NCBI GenBank assembly: GCA_007050995.1
Contig: VJOU01000012.1
Span: 1 to 64,000 of the forward strand
Reading direction: 5' to 3'
Source: Glycocaulis profundi
GTDB taxonomy: Bacteria > Pseudomonadota > Alphaproteobacteria > Caulobacterales > Maricaulaceae
Length of the DNA stretch: 64,000 nucleotides
Positions 23,343-31,503 of this stretch are shown here, one piece after another. A model generated the notes under the pieces. That model did not search any database and was not told the origin of the DNA. It saw nothing but the letters and a program-made list of their open reading frames with translations. A program made the translations under genes and the position numbers. Within the stretch, counting starts at the first letter, position 1, and every line of letters begins with the position of its first letter.

Positions 23343-24359
23343 CTAACCTCCGGTTGCTCGCCGGTCCACCTTGCGCTCACCCCTTTTGCGGATCAGTGCG
23401 ATCAGCACGCCGCTCAGGATCAGGAAGGCCAGCCCCTGCACCCAGTTCTGGGGGCCCAGCGTGACGGCATCGGGGCCGGCCTGACCGGTCACCCTCCGCA
23501 TCGTCTCGGCGAAGGCCGCGCCGATGTCGCCGTCCTCGCGCGCGCTGATCTGAGCTGCCAGCGGCATCACGATGATGAGGATGTTGAAGGCGCCGTGGGC
23601 GGCGACCGGTCCCCAGATCGACCGCTCCCACAGGGCGTAGAGGGCGAAGAACAGCCCCGTCGCCCCCAGCCCGAACAGCGCCACCGCGCCATAGGCCAGG
23701 CCGGACGTGAAGACGTGGGCGTGCACCAGCATGAAGACCAGGCTGGACCCGGCCACCGCCGCCACCGCGCCCCAGTGCGCGGCCAGCGCGCTCATCATCC
23801 AGCCGCGGAACACGACCTCCTCCATCGCGCCCTGCAGCAGAAAGACCGCGGCGATACCCGCCAGAAGGGCGAGCGCGAGCGGGGTGAAGAGCCTCGATAT
23901 GTCCGCGTCACGCAGCGCCGCCTCCGCCTCGGCGGCCGCTTCGGGCGCGGGGAAGACGGCCAGCACCGCCGTGGCGCAGAGCCACAGCAGCACGGCGCAG
24001 CCCGCCCCCACGGCCAGCCCGCGCAGATACCGGGTCAGCCAGCGATGCCGCCCCAGCCCGAGCGTGGCGAGGCCGCGCCGTTCGAACTGGGCGGTCCACC
24101 ACACGATCAGGCCGCCCCAGGCCGCGAACTGGAGCAGCAGGGTGGGCAGCATGACGCCGGGGGCCATCGCTCCAGCCTGGATATCCGCCGCCGATCCGCC
24201 CTGCATCGCGACGGACATGGCCGCCACCGCGCCGGGCACGATGGCGGGGATGATGGCCAGGCCATAGCTGATCAGCACGACCGCAGGGGTGGCGAAACCC
24301 CATGTCCGCCGCGAGCCTTCCGGCCACGGCGCATAGAGCGCGACGGGGCTGAAACGCAT
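23343..24359 (-). CDS. CPBP-family intramembrane metalloprotease
   Basis: A 338-residue polytopic protein with the three signatures of the CPBP (CAAX protease / bacteriocin-processing, Abi) family: EEVVFRG (the EExxxR motif), a histidine in VHAHVFTSGL and the terminal HGAFNI. These form an intramembrane Glu/His active site. About eight membrane segments are predicted. Members cleave or modify membrane peptides and some serve in immunity to bacteriocins. The start overlaps the stop of the preceding membrane-protein gene by one base, so the two are co-translated. A processing role towards its cluster neighbours is possible but is inference. Confidence 0.88.
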   Translation of the reverse strand: MRFSPVALYAPWPEGSRRTWGFATPAVVLISYGLAIIPAIVPGAVAAMSVAMQGGSAADIQAGAMAPGVMLPTLLLQFAAWGGLIVWWTAQFERRGLATLGLGRHRWLTRYLRGLAVGAGCAVLLWLCATAVLAVFPAPEAAAEAEAALRDADISRLFTPLALALLAGIAAVFLLQGAMEEVVFRGWMMSALAAHWGAVAAVAGSSLVFMLVHAHVFTSGLAYGAVALFGLGATGLFFALYALWERSIWGPVAAHGAFNILIIVMPLAAQISAREDGDIGAAFAETMRRVTGQAGPDAVTLGPQNWVQGLAFLILSGVLIALIRKRGERKVDRRATGG

Positions 24360-25366
24360 CAGGCCAGAGGCTCGTCGCCCGCGCGCGGCGGGGTCTGCTC
24401 AGTCGCGGGCGCGGGCGGCGGCGGCGCGGCGGGCGCCGCCTGATCGGTCCGGAGCGCGGAGATGTACAGCGCCGCCTTGGACGCCACCCCGCGCGCCAGC
24501 AGATAACCCGGCAGGGAGATGATCATCAGGATCACGTAGCTGACGAAGGCGACCAGCAGCGTGCCGGTGTTGGCGAACATGGCCGACATGGCTTCGCCGT
24601 AGGCGGCGGGATTGGCCGCGTCCATGCTGGCCGCCATCATCGCCCCCATCGGGCCGGGCATCATCAGCGCCACGACCCAGCCCACCAGCGACAGGGCGAG
24701 GAAGACCAGCACGACGAGGAACCAGGCGCCGAAGAGCGGCCAGAAGATCGTCCGCGACCCGCCGATGCCCCCCCCGATGCGCAGGCCGCGCTCGAGCACG
24801 CTGAGCGCCACCACCGGCGAGATGCGCACACACCAAGCCAGAAAGAAGAACAGGGCGACCAGCCCCAGGAGCGCCCCGGCCAGATAGCCGAACACGGCGC
24901 TGACCTGCCCCGCGGCCCAGCCTGCCACAGCCACCAGCGCGGTCAGCAGCACCAAGACGAGCACGCTGAGAATCCACAGGATCAGGAAGCCGAGGAACAC
25001 CCGCAGAACGTCGGCGGGGTTGGGCAGAAGCCCGCCCTCGCCCCGCGTGGTCAGGCGCAGCCAGCCCGCCTCGACGATGAACCAGATGGCGATGAAGGGC
25101 ACGTAACCCAGCGCCATCGCGCCGAAGAAGGCGCCCAGCTGCTCAGGCGTGGGCTCTACGCCGCCCGCGCTGGCGGTCATGAAGGCCGCGGTCGGCTCGG
25201 CGGTGATCCACAGCATGATCAAGGAGGCGATGGAGAACAGCAGGACGTGGATCACGCTCAGGCCGATGAACGCCCCCGGACGGGCGCGATACACCTCGAA
25301 AATGAACGTGAAGGCCTTGCCGGAGTCGAAATGGGGCCGCGGCGCGGCGCTGCTGGTGTCGGTCAT
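24359..25366 (-). CDS. Polytopic inner membrane protein, glycerophosphodiesterase-membrane-domain-like
   Basis: A 335-residue protein with about six membrane segments. The opening FDSGKAFTFIFEVYRARPGAFIGLS resembles the entry segment of GPDPase-type membrane domains. The block ISPVVALSVLERG...GSRTIFWPLFGAWFLVVLVFL is the typical middle loop, and a Pro/Ala-rich disordered C-terminus follows. No enzymatic domain is attached. It is tightly linked to the downstream CPBP protease (one-base overlap). The role is unknown; these domains are thought to be scaffolds or sensors in the membrane. Confidence 0.75.
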   Translation of the reverse strand: MTDTSSAAPRPHFDSGKAFTFIFEVYRARPGAFIGLSVIHVLLFSIASLIMLWITAEPTAAFMTASAGGVEPTPEQLGAFFGAMALGYVPFIAIWFIVEAGWLRLTTRGEGGLLPNPADVLRVFLGFLILWILSVLVLVLLTALVAVAGWAAGQVSAVFGYLAGALLGLVALFFFLAWCVRISPVVALSVLERGLRIGGGIGGSRTIFWPLFGAWFLVVLVFLALSLVGWVVALMMPGPMGAMMAASMDAANPAAYGEAMSAMFANTGTLLVAFVSYVILMIISLPGYLLARGVASKAALYISALRTDQAAPAAPPPPAPATEQTPPRAGDEPLA

Positions 25367-25440: not shown

Positions 25441-26229
25441 CTAAGCGGAATCGGGCTGAATGGCGTTAAATTTCCGATACAAGGCCGACCACAGGGCCAT
25501 CAGCGGCGCGACCAACAGCGCGACCCCCGCCAAACCCTGAAGGAAGGCCTGCAGGACCGCAGGGAGCGGCGCGGCGGCCAACGCGTACATCGCGGCGATG
25601 CCCGGCGCGGCGGCCAGAAGGCTGGTCAGGGCGATCGCGTGGGACCGGCCCGTGGACAGCGGCCAGATCGACAGCACCTGCACCCGGCCCCGCTCCAGCG
25701 TGGCGGGCCCGGCCATCGCCACCCGCGCCAGCACCCACAGGCTGAACACCGCGAACGCGGCCAGCAGCACCGTGGCGACGATCCATTCGCCGGTCCCGAA
25801 CAAGGCGAAGATGTTCACGAATCCCTCGGGCTGCTCGGTCATGCCCGCCCGGTCCGCGCCGATCAGCGCCAGCGCGCCCAGCATGAAGGCCAGGCACAGG
25901 AAGGCCGTGCCGATGACCGTGCCCAGCAGGATCAGGATCAGGATCATCACCCAGACGAAGCGCGCCTCGTCGGCCCCCGCCGCGAAGCCCAGCACGCCCT
26001 TGCCGGGCAGTTCCAGCGCCATGCGCCCGAACCCGGCCGCGGCGATGAACAGCACCGCCAACGCCGCGAACAGGGCCAGCCCCGCCGCGGCCCCCGCACC
26101 CGCCTGAGCGAACGCGATCTGAACCGCGTGAAGTCCCCCGTAGGCCAGCGCCGCAAGCCCGACCGGCACGGCATGTCGGAGGGGAAAGCCGGCCGCGCGG
26201 CCCAGCGCCTGAAGATCGATCAACATCAT
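25441..26229 (-). CDS. Polytopic inner membrane protein, unknown
   Basis: A 262-residue protein, almost entirely hydrophobic, with about six membrane segments (AGAAAGLALFAALAVLFIAAAGFG; FVWVMILILILLGTVIGTAFLCLAFML; ALTSLLAAAPGIAAMYALA). It contains the loop motif R-V-A-M-A-G-P-A-T-L-E-R-G, which parallels the loops of the 335- and 309-residue neighbours. It lies 74 bases upstream of the 335-residue gene and 55 bases downstream of the duplicated cassette, all on the minus strand. No signal peptide or catalytic motif. Function unknown. Confidence 0.72.
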   Translation of the reverse strand: MMLIDLQALGRAAGFPLRHAVPVGLAALAYGGLHAVQIAFAQAGAGAAAGLALFAALAVLFIAAAGFGRMALELPGKGVLGFAAGADEARFVWVMILILILLGTVIGTAFLCLAFMLGALALIGADRAGMTEQPEGFVNIFALFGTGEWIVATVLLAAFAVFSLWVLARVAMAGPATLERGRVQVLSIWPLSTGRSHAIALTSLLAAAPGIAAMYALAAAPLPAVLQAFLQGLAGVALLVAPLMALWSALYRKFNAIQPDSA

Positions 26230-26284: not shown

Positions 26285-26980
26285 TCAGGGGGCAGCCGGG
26301 TTGTGACCGGGACGGCAGATTTCGACAGACGCGCCTGAGCGGTCCCGATAGGTCTGGCAGGGCGCGAGGACGATCACGTGCTCGCGATGATTGACGCCGG
26401 TCGGATGATGAAGGTCCCGCGGCAGGTCGCCGGCGACGTCCCCCGCCTCGCCTTGCGGATAGTCGAACAGCACGGTCAGGCGACGCAGGCGCCCGTTGTT
26501 CGACCACTGCGCACGCGTCAGGGCGATGGCCGCCTCCCCCTCTCCGCGCGCCGGGCCGCGCGCATCGAGCCCGCCCAGCGAGGCCTGCCCGCAGGACGCC
26601 TCCGCCGCAGGATCGCCCAGCGCGAGGTGGAAGCGGTCGGTTTCAGGCAGCCGTCCGGGCGGGGCGGAAAAGCGCCGCGCCGCCCGGCGCGCACGATCTG
26701 ACAGGGCGCGGCCGCAGGCCTGCTCGTAGCGCAGCGCCGCCCAGGCCCGATACGCCGCTTCCGCCCTGCGCCCGTCCGCGGCCGCCTCGAGCCCGGCGAT
26801 GAAAGACAGGATGGCCCCGTCGCCCATGACCGCTTCTGAGTCGTCGAGCAGCGACCGCGCCGCCTCCCCCGCCGCCTCCAGTCGTCCCTCCGCCCATGCC
26901 CGCCGCACCTCGTCACGCGGATCCGAGGCCGACTGCATCGCCATGACGGCGGCGATCAGCGCGGCTGCGCCCCCCGCCAT
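26285..26980 (-). CDS. Small secreted four-cysteine protein, second copy of a duplicated cassette
   Basis: A 231-residue protein with an N-terminal hydrophobic export signal (MAGGAAALIAAVMAMQ). It is clearly related to the gene at 28157-28834. Shared blocks are GDGAILsFIAGLeA, an AcGRaLSdrARrA block, a CGqASLgGLDARgP block ahead of the GEAAIAL motif, and a terminal PCqtyrDRsG..vEICRPg. Four cysteines are conserved between the copies, which suggests two disulfides in the periplasm. No known domain is recognised. ATG at 26980 shares one base with the upstream stop (TGATG); a GTG one codon earlier is an alternative start. It is translationally coupled to the TonB_C protein. Confidence 0.78.
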   Translation of the reverse strand: MAGGAAALIAAVMAMQSASDPRDEVRRAWAEGRLEAAGEAARSLLDDSEAVMGDGAILSFIAGLEAAADGRRAEAAYRAWAALRYEQACGRALSDRARRAARRFSAPPGRLPETDRFHLALGDPAAEASCGQASLGGLDARGPARGEGEAAIALTRAQWSNNGRLRRLTVLFDYPQGEAGDVAGDLPRDLHHPTGVNHREHVIVLAPCQTYRDRSGASVEICRPGHNPAAP

Positions 26981-28107
26981 CACCGATCCATCATGAACTG
27001 GAAGCTGGTGATCACGCCCTCGCGCTCGATGGCCTGGCCGTCAAGGCGCGCGGGTTCATAGCGCCAGCGCCGGATCGCGCGCTCTCCCGACTCTCCGAAA
27101 ATCCGGTGAGGGATGGAGAACAGCGTCTCGACTTCATCCACGCGGCCATCGGCGCCCACGGTGAAGCGGTGGACGGACACCCCGTCCACCATCGCCTGAG
27201 CCGCTTGCATGGGATAGCTGGGCGTCGGACGCCGGATCGGGCTGGCATCCTCCCACTCGGCGCCCTCTGGAATGTCGGGACCTTCGCGCTCCCAGCGTTC
27301 GGGTTCGGCGGCCAGCAGTTCAGCGTACACGCTCTCGCCCAGGCTTTCGACAAGCCGGGTCTGGGCCCGCCGGTCGAGATTGCCGCGCGAGTAGATCGAC
27401 CACGCGTCCGCGGCGCGGGAGTTCACCCAGTCGGGATCCGTCTCCCGCACCAGCGCTGTGGAGAGCGCGAAGAAATAGGCGGCCTGCTCGTGCTGCTGGC
27501 GCATGGAGCGGCCCCCGCCGGCCATGAAAGCCAGCATCGCCGCGTCCAGATTCACGACGGGCTCTCCCAGCGCCTCGATCACCTCGATGGCGGCTTCCGC
27601 GGAAGCGCCGGCCTGACGGTAGCGGCCCCGGCCCCACTCGGCGTTGGCGATGATCATCCGCGCCGAGTACAGCATGCCCGAAGGCGCGTCCCCCAGCAGC
27701 CCGGCCGCCGCGCTGGCATGGCTCTGCGCGGCGCGCAGGTCTTCAGCGCGGAAAGCCTCGGCCGCCGCACGGGCCAGAAAGGCCGCACGGTCCTCGCCGG
27801 ACCCGCCCCGGCCCTCCACGAGACCTGCCAGTTCCACGAAAGCGTCGGCTGACCGGGAGGGTTGTGCGGCTTCAGACAGCGCCTGCGCGCGGTTTTCCGC
27901 CAGCGCCTCCAGCAGCCCCTGTTCGATGCTTTCGGCGCGACCGGCCTGAAACGCCTGTTCGGCGAGTTCGGCGGCGCGCTCGCGCTCGCCCGCCTCGAAT
28001 GCGGCGAGATAATCGCGATACGGGGCCATGACCGCTTCGGACGGCTCGATGGCGGCGGCCTGAGCCCCGGCGGCGAGCAGGCATGCGGCGATGATCGCGG
28101 ATTTCAT
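26980..28107 (-). CDS. Secreted repeat protein with TonB C-terminal domain, second copy
   Basis: A 375-residue exported protein (signal peptide MKSAIIAACLLAAGAQA). Residues about 25-270 are an Ala/Glu/Arg-rich helical array of TPR character ([34 protein letters not shown]). The last 85 residues match a TonB C-terminal domain: PTPSYP, DGVSVHRFTVGADGRV, FGESGERAIRRWRYEPARLDG, TSFQFMMDR. It lacks the Pro-rich spacer and cytoplasmic anchor of a true TonB, so it is unlikely to energise receptors with ExbBD. It is homologous along its length to the gene at 28831-29967. A GGGGGA lies four bases before the ATG. Confidence 0.85.
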   Translation of the reverse strand: MKSAIIAACLLAAGAQAAAIEPSEAVMAPYRDYLAAFEAGERERAAELAEQAFQAGRAESIEQGLLEALAENRAQALSEAAQPSRSADAFVELAGLVEGRGGSGEDRAAFLARAAAEAFRAEDLRAAQSHASAAAGLLGDAPSGMLYSARMIIANAEWGRGRYRQAGASAEAAIEVIEALGEPVVNLDAAMLAFMAGGGRSMRQQHEQAAYFFALSTALVRETDPDWVNSRAADAWSIYSRGNLDRRAQTRLVESLGESVYAELLAAEPERWEREGPDIPEGAEWEDASPIRRPTPSYPMQAAQAMVDGVSVHRFTVGADGRVDEVETLFSIPHRIFGESGERAIRRWRYEPARLDGQAIEREGVITSFQFMMDR

Positions 28108-28156
28108 GGCGTCCCCCTTCTGCGCGGGGGCAGACTTCCCGTCCCGCGAGCGGAGG

Positions 28157-28834
28157 TCAACCCCCGGTTACGTCCGTGGACGGGCGGCACACCTCGCTCA
28201 CGCCGCCCTGACGGTCGAGAAAAGACAGGCAGGGGTCGAGGCGGATGATGCGCGTGGTCCCAAACCGGCTCATCCAGCCGCGATCCTCCTCGGCCCGAAG
28301 CCGTTCATGAACGGCGGCCATCTCCTCGCTCGGATACCCGTAGACCATTCTGGAAACCCCGCGGCGCCCCATCAGGAACGCGACCGCGGCCTCACCCGCG
28401 CCGGGCTCGGGCGACCGGGCGTCCAGTCCCTCCAGCGAGGCGGGGCCGCAGGTCCGGTCCGTCATGCGGAGATAAGGAGAACTCGCGTAGAGCCGGTCGG
28501 ATCGGGAATCGCGGGCGGGACGGTCATTGCGGAGCTCCGTGGCTTCGCGGGCCGCGCGGGACAGGGACCGGCCGCAGGTCCGTTCATGGTTCGCGGCGAC
28601 CCAGAAATAGTATCCCGTGGCCGGCCACTCCTCCCGCCATTCCGCCGCGAGCCCTGCGATGAAGGCCAGGATCGCGCCGTCACCCAGAAGCGGGCCGGAC
28701 GGGTCGACCGCCTGCAGGCATTCCGAGGCGACGCGCCCGGCTTCCTCCAGTTCGCCCGACAGCCAGGGCTCCGAGACCGGGCACGGCCCGGCGGCGACCG
28801 CGACGGATGCGAGCACGACGGCCAGGGCGCTCAT
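28157..28834 (-). CDS. Small secreted four-cysteine protein, first copy of the cassette
   Basis: A 225-residue exported protein beginning [16 protein letters not shown]. It is related throughout to the protein at 26285-26980: [73 protein letters not shown]. The four cysteines shared with the other copy are joined here by two extra N-terminal ones (GPCPVS, SECLQ). No enzyme motif is seen. The ATG overlaps the stop of the TonB_C gene by four bases (ATGA), as in the other copy, so the partner proteins are made together. About 50 bases separate it from the second cassette. Confidence 0.78.
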
Positions 28835-29967
28835 CGGTTATCGATCATGAAATTGAAGGATGTGAACACGTCGCGCTTTTCGACGGGCTGCCCGTCGACC
28901 GTGGCCGGATCGTACCGCCATTGGCGGATCGCCTCTTCCCCCGGAGGTCCGAACATCGGATGCGGGATGGACGCGAGCGTGCGGATATTCGTCGTCCTTC
29001 CCTGCTCATTCACATCGAAGACGTACAGGGCGACGCCGTTCAGGCCACGGCGCAGCCCTTCGTGCGGATAAGCGGGGGGAGTGTTCCGCAGCCTCACCGT
29101 GTCACGCCAGTCCCGTCCTTCATATTCTGTCGGCGGCCCGTTTTCGTCGGCGCTGTCGCAGTCCTCCAGCAAAGCCGCCTGATAAGGGCTGGCGGCCATG
29201 CGCTCAAGCAGGGCCAGCCCTTCGGCTTCACTGAGAACCGAACGCGCGAATATCGCCCAGCCGTACAGCACGCTTGCGGAATCGTCCTCCCCGGTTTCGG
29301 CTTCCAGACGCCTCCCGATGGCGCTGGCCAGAGAGAAATGATAGGCCGCATCCGGGTTGTCCCGGCGCATGAGCCCCCCGATGCCCGCCATGAAGGCCAT
29401 CAGCGCCGGACTCGACGCATAGGCCGGCTCACGGTGATGCAGGGTTTCCACTGCGGCCTTTGCGCTGTCTCCAGCCTGACGGAGGCGGCCCCGGTCCCAC
29501 TCGAGCTGGGCCAGCAGGGCATGAGACTGGAAAGCCAGGGCGGATCCGGCCGGCAGGCCGCCGGCGTGAAAGACGGCCTGTCCAGCCTGCTCCCGCGCGT
29601 TCCGCTCATCCCCGGCCGCACGCCACGCCCCCGCGGCCCTGAGCCGCAGCTCAGCCGCCCGCGCGGCGTCAGCGCCGCTTTCGGCTTCAATGCCGGCGAG
29701 GTCCTCGTAGGCCGCAGCCGCTTCGGCCATCCGGCCAAGGTCTTCGAGCACCTGCGCGCGGTTTTCCGCCAGCGCGGCGAGCGTCCCGGCATCCACGCCC
29801 TCCGCCCGGCCGAGCCTGTAAGCCTCCTGAGCATGCCCGGCGGCGGCGGCGAGATCATCCGCCTCTATCGCCGCCATGTACGCGTGATAGGCGCCCATGA
29901 CGTCATCGCTCTGCGCGCCCGTGAGCAGAGATCCCGCCGCAGCGGCGGCCACCATCAGCAATTTCAT
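28831..29967 (-). CDS. Secreted repeat protein with TonB C-terminal domain, first copy
   Basis: A 378-residue exported protein (signal peptide [20 protein letters not shown]). An Ala-rich helical repeat region of TPR character (about residues 25-270) carries the [14 protein letters not shown] block also found in the second copy. A TonB C-terminal domain follows ([50 protein letters not shown]). I chose the ATG at 29967 rather than 29973 because GGGGGA then sits at the best spacing, exactly as in the second copy. It is the first gene of the cassette, behind a possible sigma-70 promoter. Its function is not known; a periplasmic binding or scaffold role is inferred from the domains. Confidence 0.84.
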
Positions 29968-30093: not shown

Positions 30094-31503
30094 ATGACAG
30101 ATCAGCGACCCATCCACATCGTCGGCGGCGGCATGGCCGGTTCAGAAGCGGCCTGGCAGGCGGCGAACGCAGGCGCGCGCGTGGTGCTCCACGAGATGCG
30201 CCCCGTGCGCAAGACCGAGGCCCACCAGACCGAGGGGCTGGCCGAGCTGGTGTGCTCGAACTCCTTCCGGTCAGATGACGCCGAGACCAACGCGGTGGGC
30301 CTGCTGCACGAGGAGATGCGGCGCGCGGGCTCGCTGATCATGGCCATGGGCGACCGCAACCAGGTCCCTGCGGGCGGCGCGCTGGCGGTGGACCGCGACG
30401 CCTTCTCCCAGGCCGTGACCGCCGCGCTGGAGGCCCACCCGAACATCGAGATCGTGCGCGAGGAGATCGTCGGGCTGCCGCCTGAAGACTGGGACAGCGT
30501 GATCATCGCCACCGGCCCGCTGACCTCGCCCGCCCTGGGCGAGGCGGTCCATGCGATCACCGGCGAGGGCGAGCTGGCCTTCTTCGACGCCATCGCGCCG
30601 ATCATCTATGCGGACAGCATCGACATGGGCGTGGCGTGGAAGCAGTCGCGCTACGACAAGGGCGAGACCGAGGAGGACCGGGCCGCCTACGTGAACTGCC
30701 CGATGACGAAGGACCAGTACGAGGCCTTCGTGGACGCGCTGCTCGCCGCGCCCCAGACCGAGTTCAAGGACTGGGAAAAGGACACGCCGTATTTCGACGC
30801 CTGCCTGCCCATCGAGGTGATGGCCGAGCGCGGGCGCGAGACCCTGCGCCACGGGCCGATGAAGCCGCGTGGCCTGACCAACGCCCACGACCCGGAGACC
30901 AAGCCTTATGCGGTCGTCCAGCTGCGCCAGGACAACGCGCTGGGCACCCTGTTCAACATGGTCGGTTTCCAGACCAAGATGAAATACGGCGTCCAGACCG
31001 AGGTGTTCCGCATGATCCCGGGGCTGGAAAACGCCAGCTTCGCCCGGCTGGGCGGCATCCACCGCAACACCTTCCTCAATTCGCCCAAGCTGCTGGACGG
31101 TGTGATGCGCCTGAAGGCCCGCCCCGCCCTGCGCTTCGCGGGCCAGATCACGGGCGTGGAAGGGTATGTGGAGAGCGCGGCCATGGGCCTGCTGGCGGGC
31201 CGCTTCGCCGCCGCGGAGCGGCTGGGCCGGGACATGGCCCCGCCTCCCGCCGACACCGCGCTGGGCGCGCTGCTGACCCATGTGACCACCGGCCACGTGC
31301 CGGGCCGCAAGGGCGCCTTCCAGCCCATGAACGTCAATTTCGGCCTCTTCCCCGACATCGCCGACGCGCCCACGAAGGACGCGGACGGCAGGCGCCTGCG
31401 CGGCGCGGCCAAGGCCCAGGCGAAAAAGCGCGCCATGAGCGCCCGGGCGCTCCGCGCCATCGACGGCTGGCTGGGCGCGGACGCGGCGAAAGCCGCGGAA
31501 TAG
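30094..31503 (+). CDS. trmFO: Methylenetetrahydrofolate-tRNA (uracil-5-)-methyltransferase
   Basis: Folate- and FAD-dependent enzyme that makes ribothymidine-54 in the tRNA T-loop. It has 469 residues. The FAD-binding [17 protein letters not shown] opens the chain, then [27 protein letters not shown] (catalytic region Cys), [38 protein letters not shown]-like [11 protein letters not shown], and the [12 protein letters not shown] close. A long open frame runs upstream through the divergent region, but the conserved protein begins at this ATG. No obvious Shine-Dalgarno precedes it. Confidence 0.97.

Follow-up and report, generated by a model that had tools for sequence, protein, structure and literature searches.

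The C-terminal domain of TonB is described as the target-binding end of a motor-driven transducer, and the C-terminal domains of TonB and TolA bind by strand addition; CpoB has tetratricopeptide repeats (TPRs) (PMC12204202). In Vibrio vulnificus the TonB2 system has been reported to require a TPR protein, TtpD2 (PMC6957404). Here we describe a locus in Glycocaulis profundi, located in positions 1 to 64,000 of contig VJOU01000012.1 (assembly GCA_007050995.1; this whole stretch of 64,000 nucleotides is called the window), in which two tandem two-gene units each encode a large protein combining TPRs with a TonB C-terminal domain (big) and a smaller partner (small).

Like the TonB energy transducer, the bigs carry a full TonB_C domain with its PxYP and WRYxP stretches; they differ from it in the TPR array that replaces the spacer, in a start that in most of them resembles a signal peptide, in the lack of exbB and exbD on the contig, and in their pairing with a degenerate sibling. 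TtpD2 likewise sets a TPR part alongside a TonB, but it is a separate TPR protein at the end of the tonB2 operon, whereas the bigs hold TPRs and TonB_C in one chain. Nor do the bigs, which have no exbB/exbD near them, fill the place of TtpD downstream of tonB, which is held in this genome by another gene (L054 5023-6597). From TolA and CpoB/YbgF of the Tol-Pal system they differ in that the TPR and the TonB/TolA-type domain are fused. The last gene of the row in which the units stand is related to the CPBP (Rce1-like) proteases, matching PF02517 and keeping the invariant residues. Among open-licence papers searched with narrow terms, no CPBP protease with TPR-TonB_C partners was found, and the same kind of search, with most subscription papers outside it, found no exported TPR-TonB_C protein with such a partner.

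It is very probable that the locus represents an envelope gene row conserved within a single family (Glycocaulis and its relatives), headed by a translationally coupled pair in which big is an exported TPR array with an intact TonB_C domain and small is a shortened paralogue, its predicted TonB-like domain lacking the TonB hallmarks and braced by paired cysteines, and that the pair was duplicated as a unit in the window genome. To the explanation as a whole, in which the two proteins act in the periplasm as an adaptor pair without a motor, the TonB-like head being intact in one and degenerate in the other, we give a probability of about 0.4.

Two tandem copies of a conserved gene pair

An earlier note, made from the letters of this DNA, had described two adjacent two-gene units on the minus strand, overlapping internally by one to four bases and duplicated as units. 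All four open reading frames (ORFs) lie at the coordinates and in the frames that it gave, and the big and small ORFs overlap by 4 nt in unit 1 and by 1 nt in unit 2. The two bigs are 38% identical (E = 3e-65) and the two smalls 36% (E = 9e-24), which marks the units as old duplicates; trees that include relatives join the two window bigs as sisters (99/98), and likewise the two window smalls (90/86), and the unit was thus most simply duplicated whole in the window lineage, as the note had held. A second tandem pair of units was found in one relative (G268, locus L079), where the trees do not place one unit beside the other. A scan for promoters and terminators gave terminators at the level of chance (3 against 2.8 expected) and 1 promoter-like site against 0.4, so that transcription as a single operon is suggested by spacing and strand only.

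Of 299 genomes from the order, 16 were found to encode small, belonging to 4 of 54 genera; in a sample of the class it was found in 1 of 385 genomes, that of G. profundi itself, which was the only member of its family listed there. The order and the class each contain more genomes than were sampled, and because few candidates were scored per genome (at most nine in the order sample, at most seven in the class sample) the absences of small make these counts lower bounds. The family sets used below hold 18 smalls from all 16 small-bearing genomes and 22 bigs. Each of the 18 smalls follows a big immediately, the spacing between the two genes ranging from -4 to +20 nt (start sites of the relatives' genes were picked by hand), which bears out both the coupling of the two genes that had been proposed and its conservation in other genomes. 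A related-locus search seeded with protein P0003 returned no relative, and PADLOC run on seven proteins gave no match.

Distances in the big and small trees are correlated (r = 0.78, and 0.76 after removing trmFO; 0/2000 permutations); with trmFO removed, the values are 0.51 for big and the neighbouring membrane protein mem7 and 0.43 for small and mem7. As neighbouring genes share history, the big-small correlation speaks only weakly for contact. When partners are exchanged between the tandem units, r drops from 0.50 to -0.04 in G268 but barely changes in the window (0.18 to 0.14).

The large proteins

Pfam recognizes TonB_C (PF03544) in both window bigs (E = 2e-12 and 1.4e-14), where the note had placed a TonB C-terminal domain, and in all 22 bigs of the family. 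The P-x-Y/F-P motif stands close to the C-terminus in 22/22, and Y298, P299, W348 and P352 (big2 numbering) are invariant across the set; compared with solved TonB domains big2 reaches a best E-value of 6.4e-12, and it has the stretch RRWRYEP in common with the TonB of 2gsk. The helical repeat body of the earlier description is also borne out: although the TPR match of big1 is below threshold in Pfam (E = 0.097) and none is listed for big2, TPR_12 is matched at E <= 0.01 by nine of the 22 bigs, and the AlphaFold2 (AF2) model of big2 (predicted local distance difference test, pLDDT, 91; predicted template modelling score, pTM, 0.86) has a TPR-like helical array over residues 24-274, where a transducer would have its Pro-rich or extended periplasmic spacer, in agreement with the note on that point as well. 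The 50 structure matches listed for big2 are taken up by TPR superhelices (LGN, kinesin light chain, Rap); none of the 50 is a TonB, because one domain fills the list.

A short hydrophobic stretch at the N-terminus occurs in 20 of the 22 bigs, with an A-x-A nearby in 17, resembling cleaved signal peptides; big1 has none. Three bigs (L046:5249, L047:9847 and L078:7008) begin without a start codon, which affects these N-terminal counts only. No big has a 19-residue stretch above 1.6 on the Kyte-Doolittle (KD) scale beyond residue 35 (0/22).

One genome in which no small was found (G030; L052 5388-6773) encodes a big-like protein matched twice by the family profile (model positions 4-329 and 288-374), which may hold an extra TonB-like stretch ahead of TonB_C; Pfam sees one TonB_C in it, and hhalign treats the extra stretch as an insertion. 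G004 has an additional big, unaccompanied by a small, beyond trmFO (L047 9847-11010). A distant TPR-TonB_C-like protein occurs in another family of the order (G047; L090 5176-6360), and no trmFO, mem6 or mem7 was found in the stretch read around it.

The small proteins

The smalls had been taken for a distinct partner family with four cysteines, and on this point the earlier note is not upheld. A comparison of the small and big profiles gives a probability of 96 and E = 4e-9 over 160 columns, in the helices, and a profile built from smalls alone finds the window bigs at E = 4e-8 and 5.8e-7. The model of small2, likewise built from smalls alone (pLDDT 83, pTM 0.84), has the beta-beta-alpha-beta fold of TonB C-terminal domains and agrees with that of big2 in the order and lengths of its elements (for example strands 151-159 and 164-174 against 309-317 and 322-332). 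All 14 listed structure matches of small2 that start at residue 144 or 145 are C-terminal domains of TonB, FusB or TolA, and the TolA domains 4g7x and 3qdp are among its matches. From profiles and models together, small is predicted to be a shortened paralogue of the second half of big, consisting of the last TPR helices and a TonB-like domain without the TonB hallmarks. The other candidate considered, an unrelated cysteine-rich family, is rejected because the profiles match in the helices and the two models are co-linear.

By sequence the C-terminal domain of small is not detected as TonB-like. Pfam finds TonB_C in 0 of the 18 smalls and no family at better than E = 0.14, so that the check for a well-described family, which the note had called for, came out without one; the P-x-Y/F-P motif near the C-terminus is present in 0/18; hhalign of the C-terminal halves of small and big alone gives E = 0.026; hmmsearch of the smalls with the TonB_C profile of the bigs does no better than on shuffled sequences; and searches of solved structures with the small profiles yield weak TPR matches only (best E = 0.029). 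An early iterated profile joined smalls and bigs at very strong E-values, and since it had been built from both it was not used as evidence for the TonB-like domain. Two observations concern the ends and the body of the smalls: in 17 of 18 the first ten residues hold no K or R, which is unusual for a signal peptide, and a borderline hydrophobic later stretch occurs in 2/18.

The four cysteines that the note had seen in both window smalls are indeed common to them, small2 having these four and small1 six; the first of the four, however, is not constant in the family. Three cysteines are invariant in all 18 smalls. The fourth lies at a helix end in the six smalls of the window's genus and just before the preceding helix in the other 12 (three genera), and the two alternative positions are never occupied together; as the switch follows the genus split, it may be a single event. 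The number of cysteines is even in every small (four in 13, six in 5), the pattern expected from disulfides in an oxidising compartment, which may brace the protein.

The gene row around the pair

The cassette heads a larger conserved gene row of membrane proteins, which the earlier note did not contain (Table 1). At 16/16 loci the cassette adjoins a divergent trmFO and is followed on its other side by mem7, with an extra big between cassette and mem7 in G001 and G002. With the window protein as query, mem6 is matched (at E 1e-3) at 12 of these loci, and CPBP is matched at 13; of the three loci that lack a CPBP match, the contig of G026 ends there, and G012 and G028 have none of this type passing 1e-30. 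The residues EE..R, F...H and H...N, which we take to be the CPBP motif, are invariant in all 14 aligned CPBP homologues. The labels trmFO and uvrA are likewise presumptive, assigned by us from the sequence. No Pfam family is matched by mem7 or mem6, and the two families cross-match weakly and have a GxDExRL motif common to their consensuses.

Among 61 relatives, mem7 was found in 24 (E <= 1e-4) and this CPBP protease in 21 (E <= 1e-30). G005 and G033 have trmFO followed by mem7-mem6-CPBP with no big or small, G016, G024 and G029 have trmFO, mem6 and big with no small, and mem6 or mem7 is present at all 20 trmFO-side loci read that have a big. We infer from these variants that the membrane proteins and big are older and that small was added.

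Table 1. Coordinates in the window of the two units, their domains and the neighbouring genes
Feature	Position	Strand	Evidence
big1: exported TPR + TonB_C protein, 378 amino acids (aa)	28831..29967	-	ORF and translation; TonB_C E 2e-12
TonB_C domain of big1, residues 297-363	28879..29079	-	Pfam PF03544
small1: 225 aa, six cysteines, predicted shortened paralogue of big	28157..28834	-	
big2: exported TPR + TonB_C protein, 375 aa	26980..28107	-	AF2 model, pLDDT 91, pTM 0.86
TonB_C domain of big2, residues 295-367	27007..27225	-	Pfam; best phmmer E-value against solved TonB domains 6.4e-12
small2: 231 aa, four cysteines (C89, C130, C208, C222), predicted shortened paralogue of big	26285..26980	-	
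Predicted TonB-like C-terminal fold of small2, residues 144-207, undetectable by sequence	26360..26551	-	
mem7: membrane protein with 7 hydrophobic stretches, following small2 in the row	25441..26229	-	16/16 small-bearing loci; no Pfam family; hydropathy
mem6: membrane protein with 9 hydrophobic stretches and a weak relationship to mem7	24359..25366	-	Hydropathy; no Pfam family
CPBP (Rce1-like) intramembrane protease, 8 hydrophobic stretches	23343..24359	-	Pfam PF02517 E 9.8e-15
trmFO (presumed), divergent landmark upstream of cassette	30094..31503	+	Same neighbour at 16/16 loci

Discussion

An intact TonB head joined to a TPR array, with no motor encoded locally, has its simplest use in strand capture without energy input, and the row's membrane proteins, among them the CPBP protease in most species, would be the obvious receivers. 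We suggest that big and small form a soluble periplasmic heterodimer without a motor, in which the intact TonB-type head of big would add a beta-strand from its client, a protein of the outer membrane or periplasm, and so hold an extended peptide in the manner of TonB and TolA, and the degenerate head of small would be a structural or regulatory subunit. Through its TPR arrays the dimer may attach to the row's membrane proteins, and client binding would then drive assembly, retention or proteolysis at the membrane instead of transport powered by protons; the tandem units could serve different clients. This specific mechanism, a client-gripping heterodimer docked to the row's membrane proteins, is put forward tentatively.

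Big could instead be an accessory or decoy of the TonB system, its soluble head binding the TonB boxes of TonB-dependent receptors and either competing with the membrane TonB or handing over to it, with small tuning the process. Elsewhere in the genome big1 is best matched, over residues 283-377 at 39% identity, by the TonB_C domain of a TonB whose gene lies with exbB and exbD, and the TtpD2 precedent (PMC6957404) makes a role of big beside an ordinary TonB possible. Whole-genome family searches returned six MotA/ExbB and four ExbD matches, and all lie on contigs other than that of the window (C8), in line with the absence of exbB/exbD noted before; none is among the labelled genes common to the loci either (receptors were not searched for). 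A TonB2-type cluster on another contig of the same genome (C55; L054 4205-10914) comprises DUF3450, two MotA/ExbB, two ExbD, TonB, a TPR protein of 525 aa and another protein with TonB_C; the TonB cluster of this genome thus already includes a separate TPR protein. We consider the accessory role unlikely.

Slightly less probable still is a structural envelope scaffold in the manner of CpoB/YbgF, in which TonB/TolA-type and TPR modules would hold envelope proteins together without gripping a client: the likeness to CpoB/YbgF in its modules is offset by a TPR match that is generic, by the TonB P-x-Y/F-P motif kept in all bigs, and by the labelled neighbours, among which no tol-pal gene was recognized, no dedicated search having been made. 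It is highly improbable that small is simply a copy of big in decay, itself without function, for despite its lack of TonB hallmarks and longer end branches (median 0.83, against 0.65 in bigs) all 18 smalls are open frames of 221-274 aa with three invariant cysteines and an even cysteine count, and their place is kept in 16 genomes.

We thus return to the motor-free adaptor pair, in what is a conserved but unstudied envelope system. In its boldest form, which has a slim chance of being right, the exported heterodimer, one TPR-TonB protein intact and the other degenerate, would sense or capture TonB-box-like periplasmic strands and control a CPBP protease complex, and would amount to a new envelope signalling or quality-control device. 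To our knowledge, little is known of the roles of CPBP proteases in bacteria, and the locus gives this protease named periplasmic candidate partners. A conserved exported TonB_C domain, fused to TPRs and with no local motor genes, raises the question of what TonB heads do without a motor, and the pair of big and its degenerate sibling offers a small, testable system in which to ask it. If the adaptor reading is true, a former part of a force transducer would have been turned into a soluble adaptor with a pseudo-subunit.
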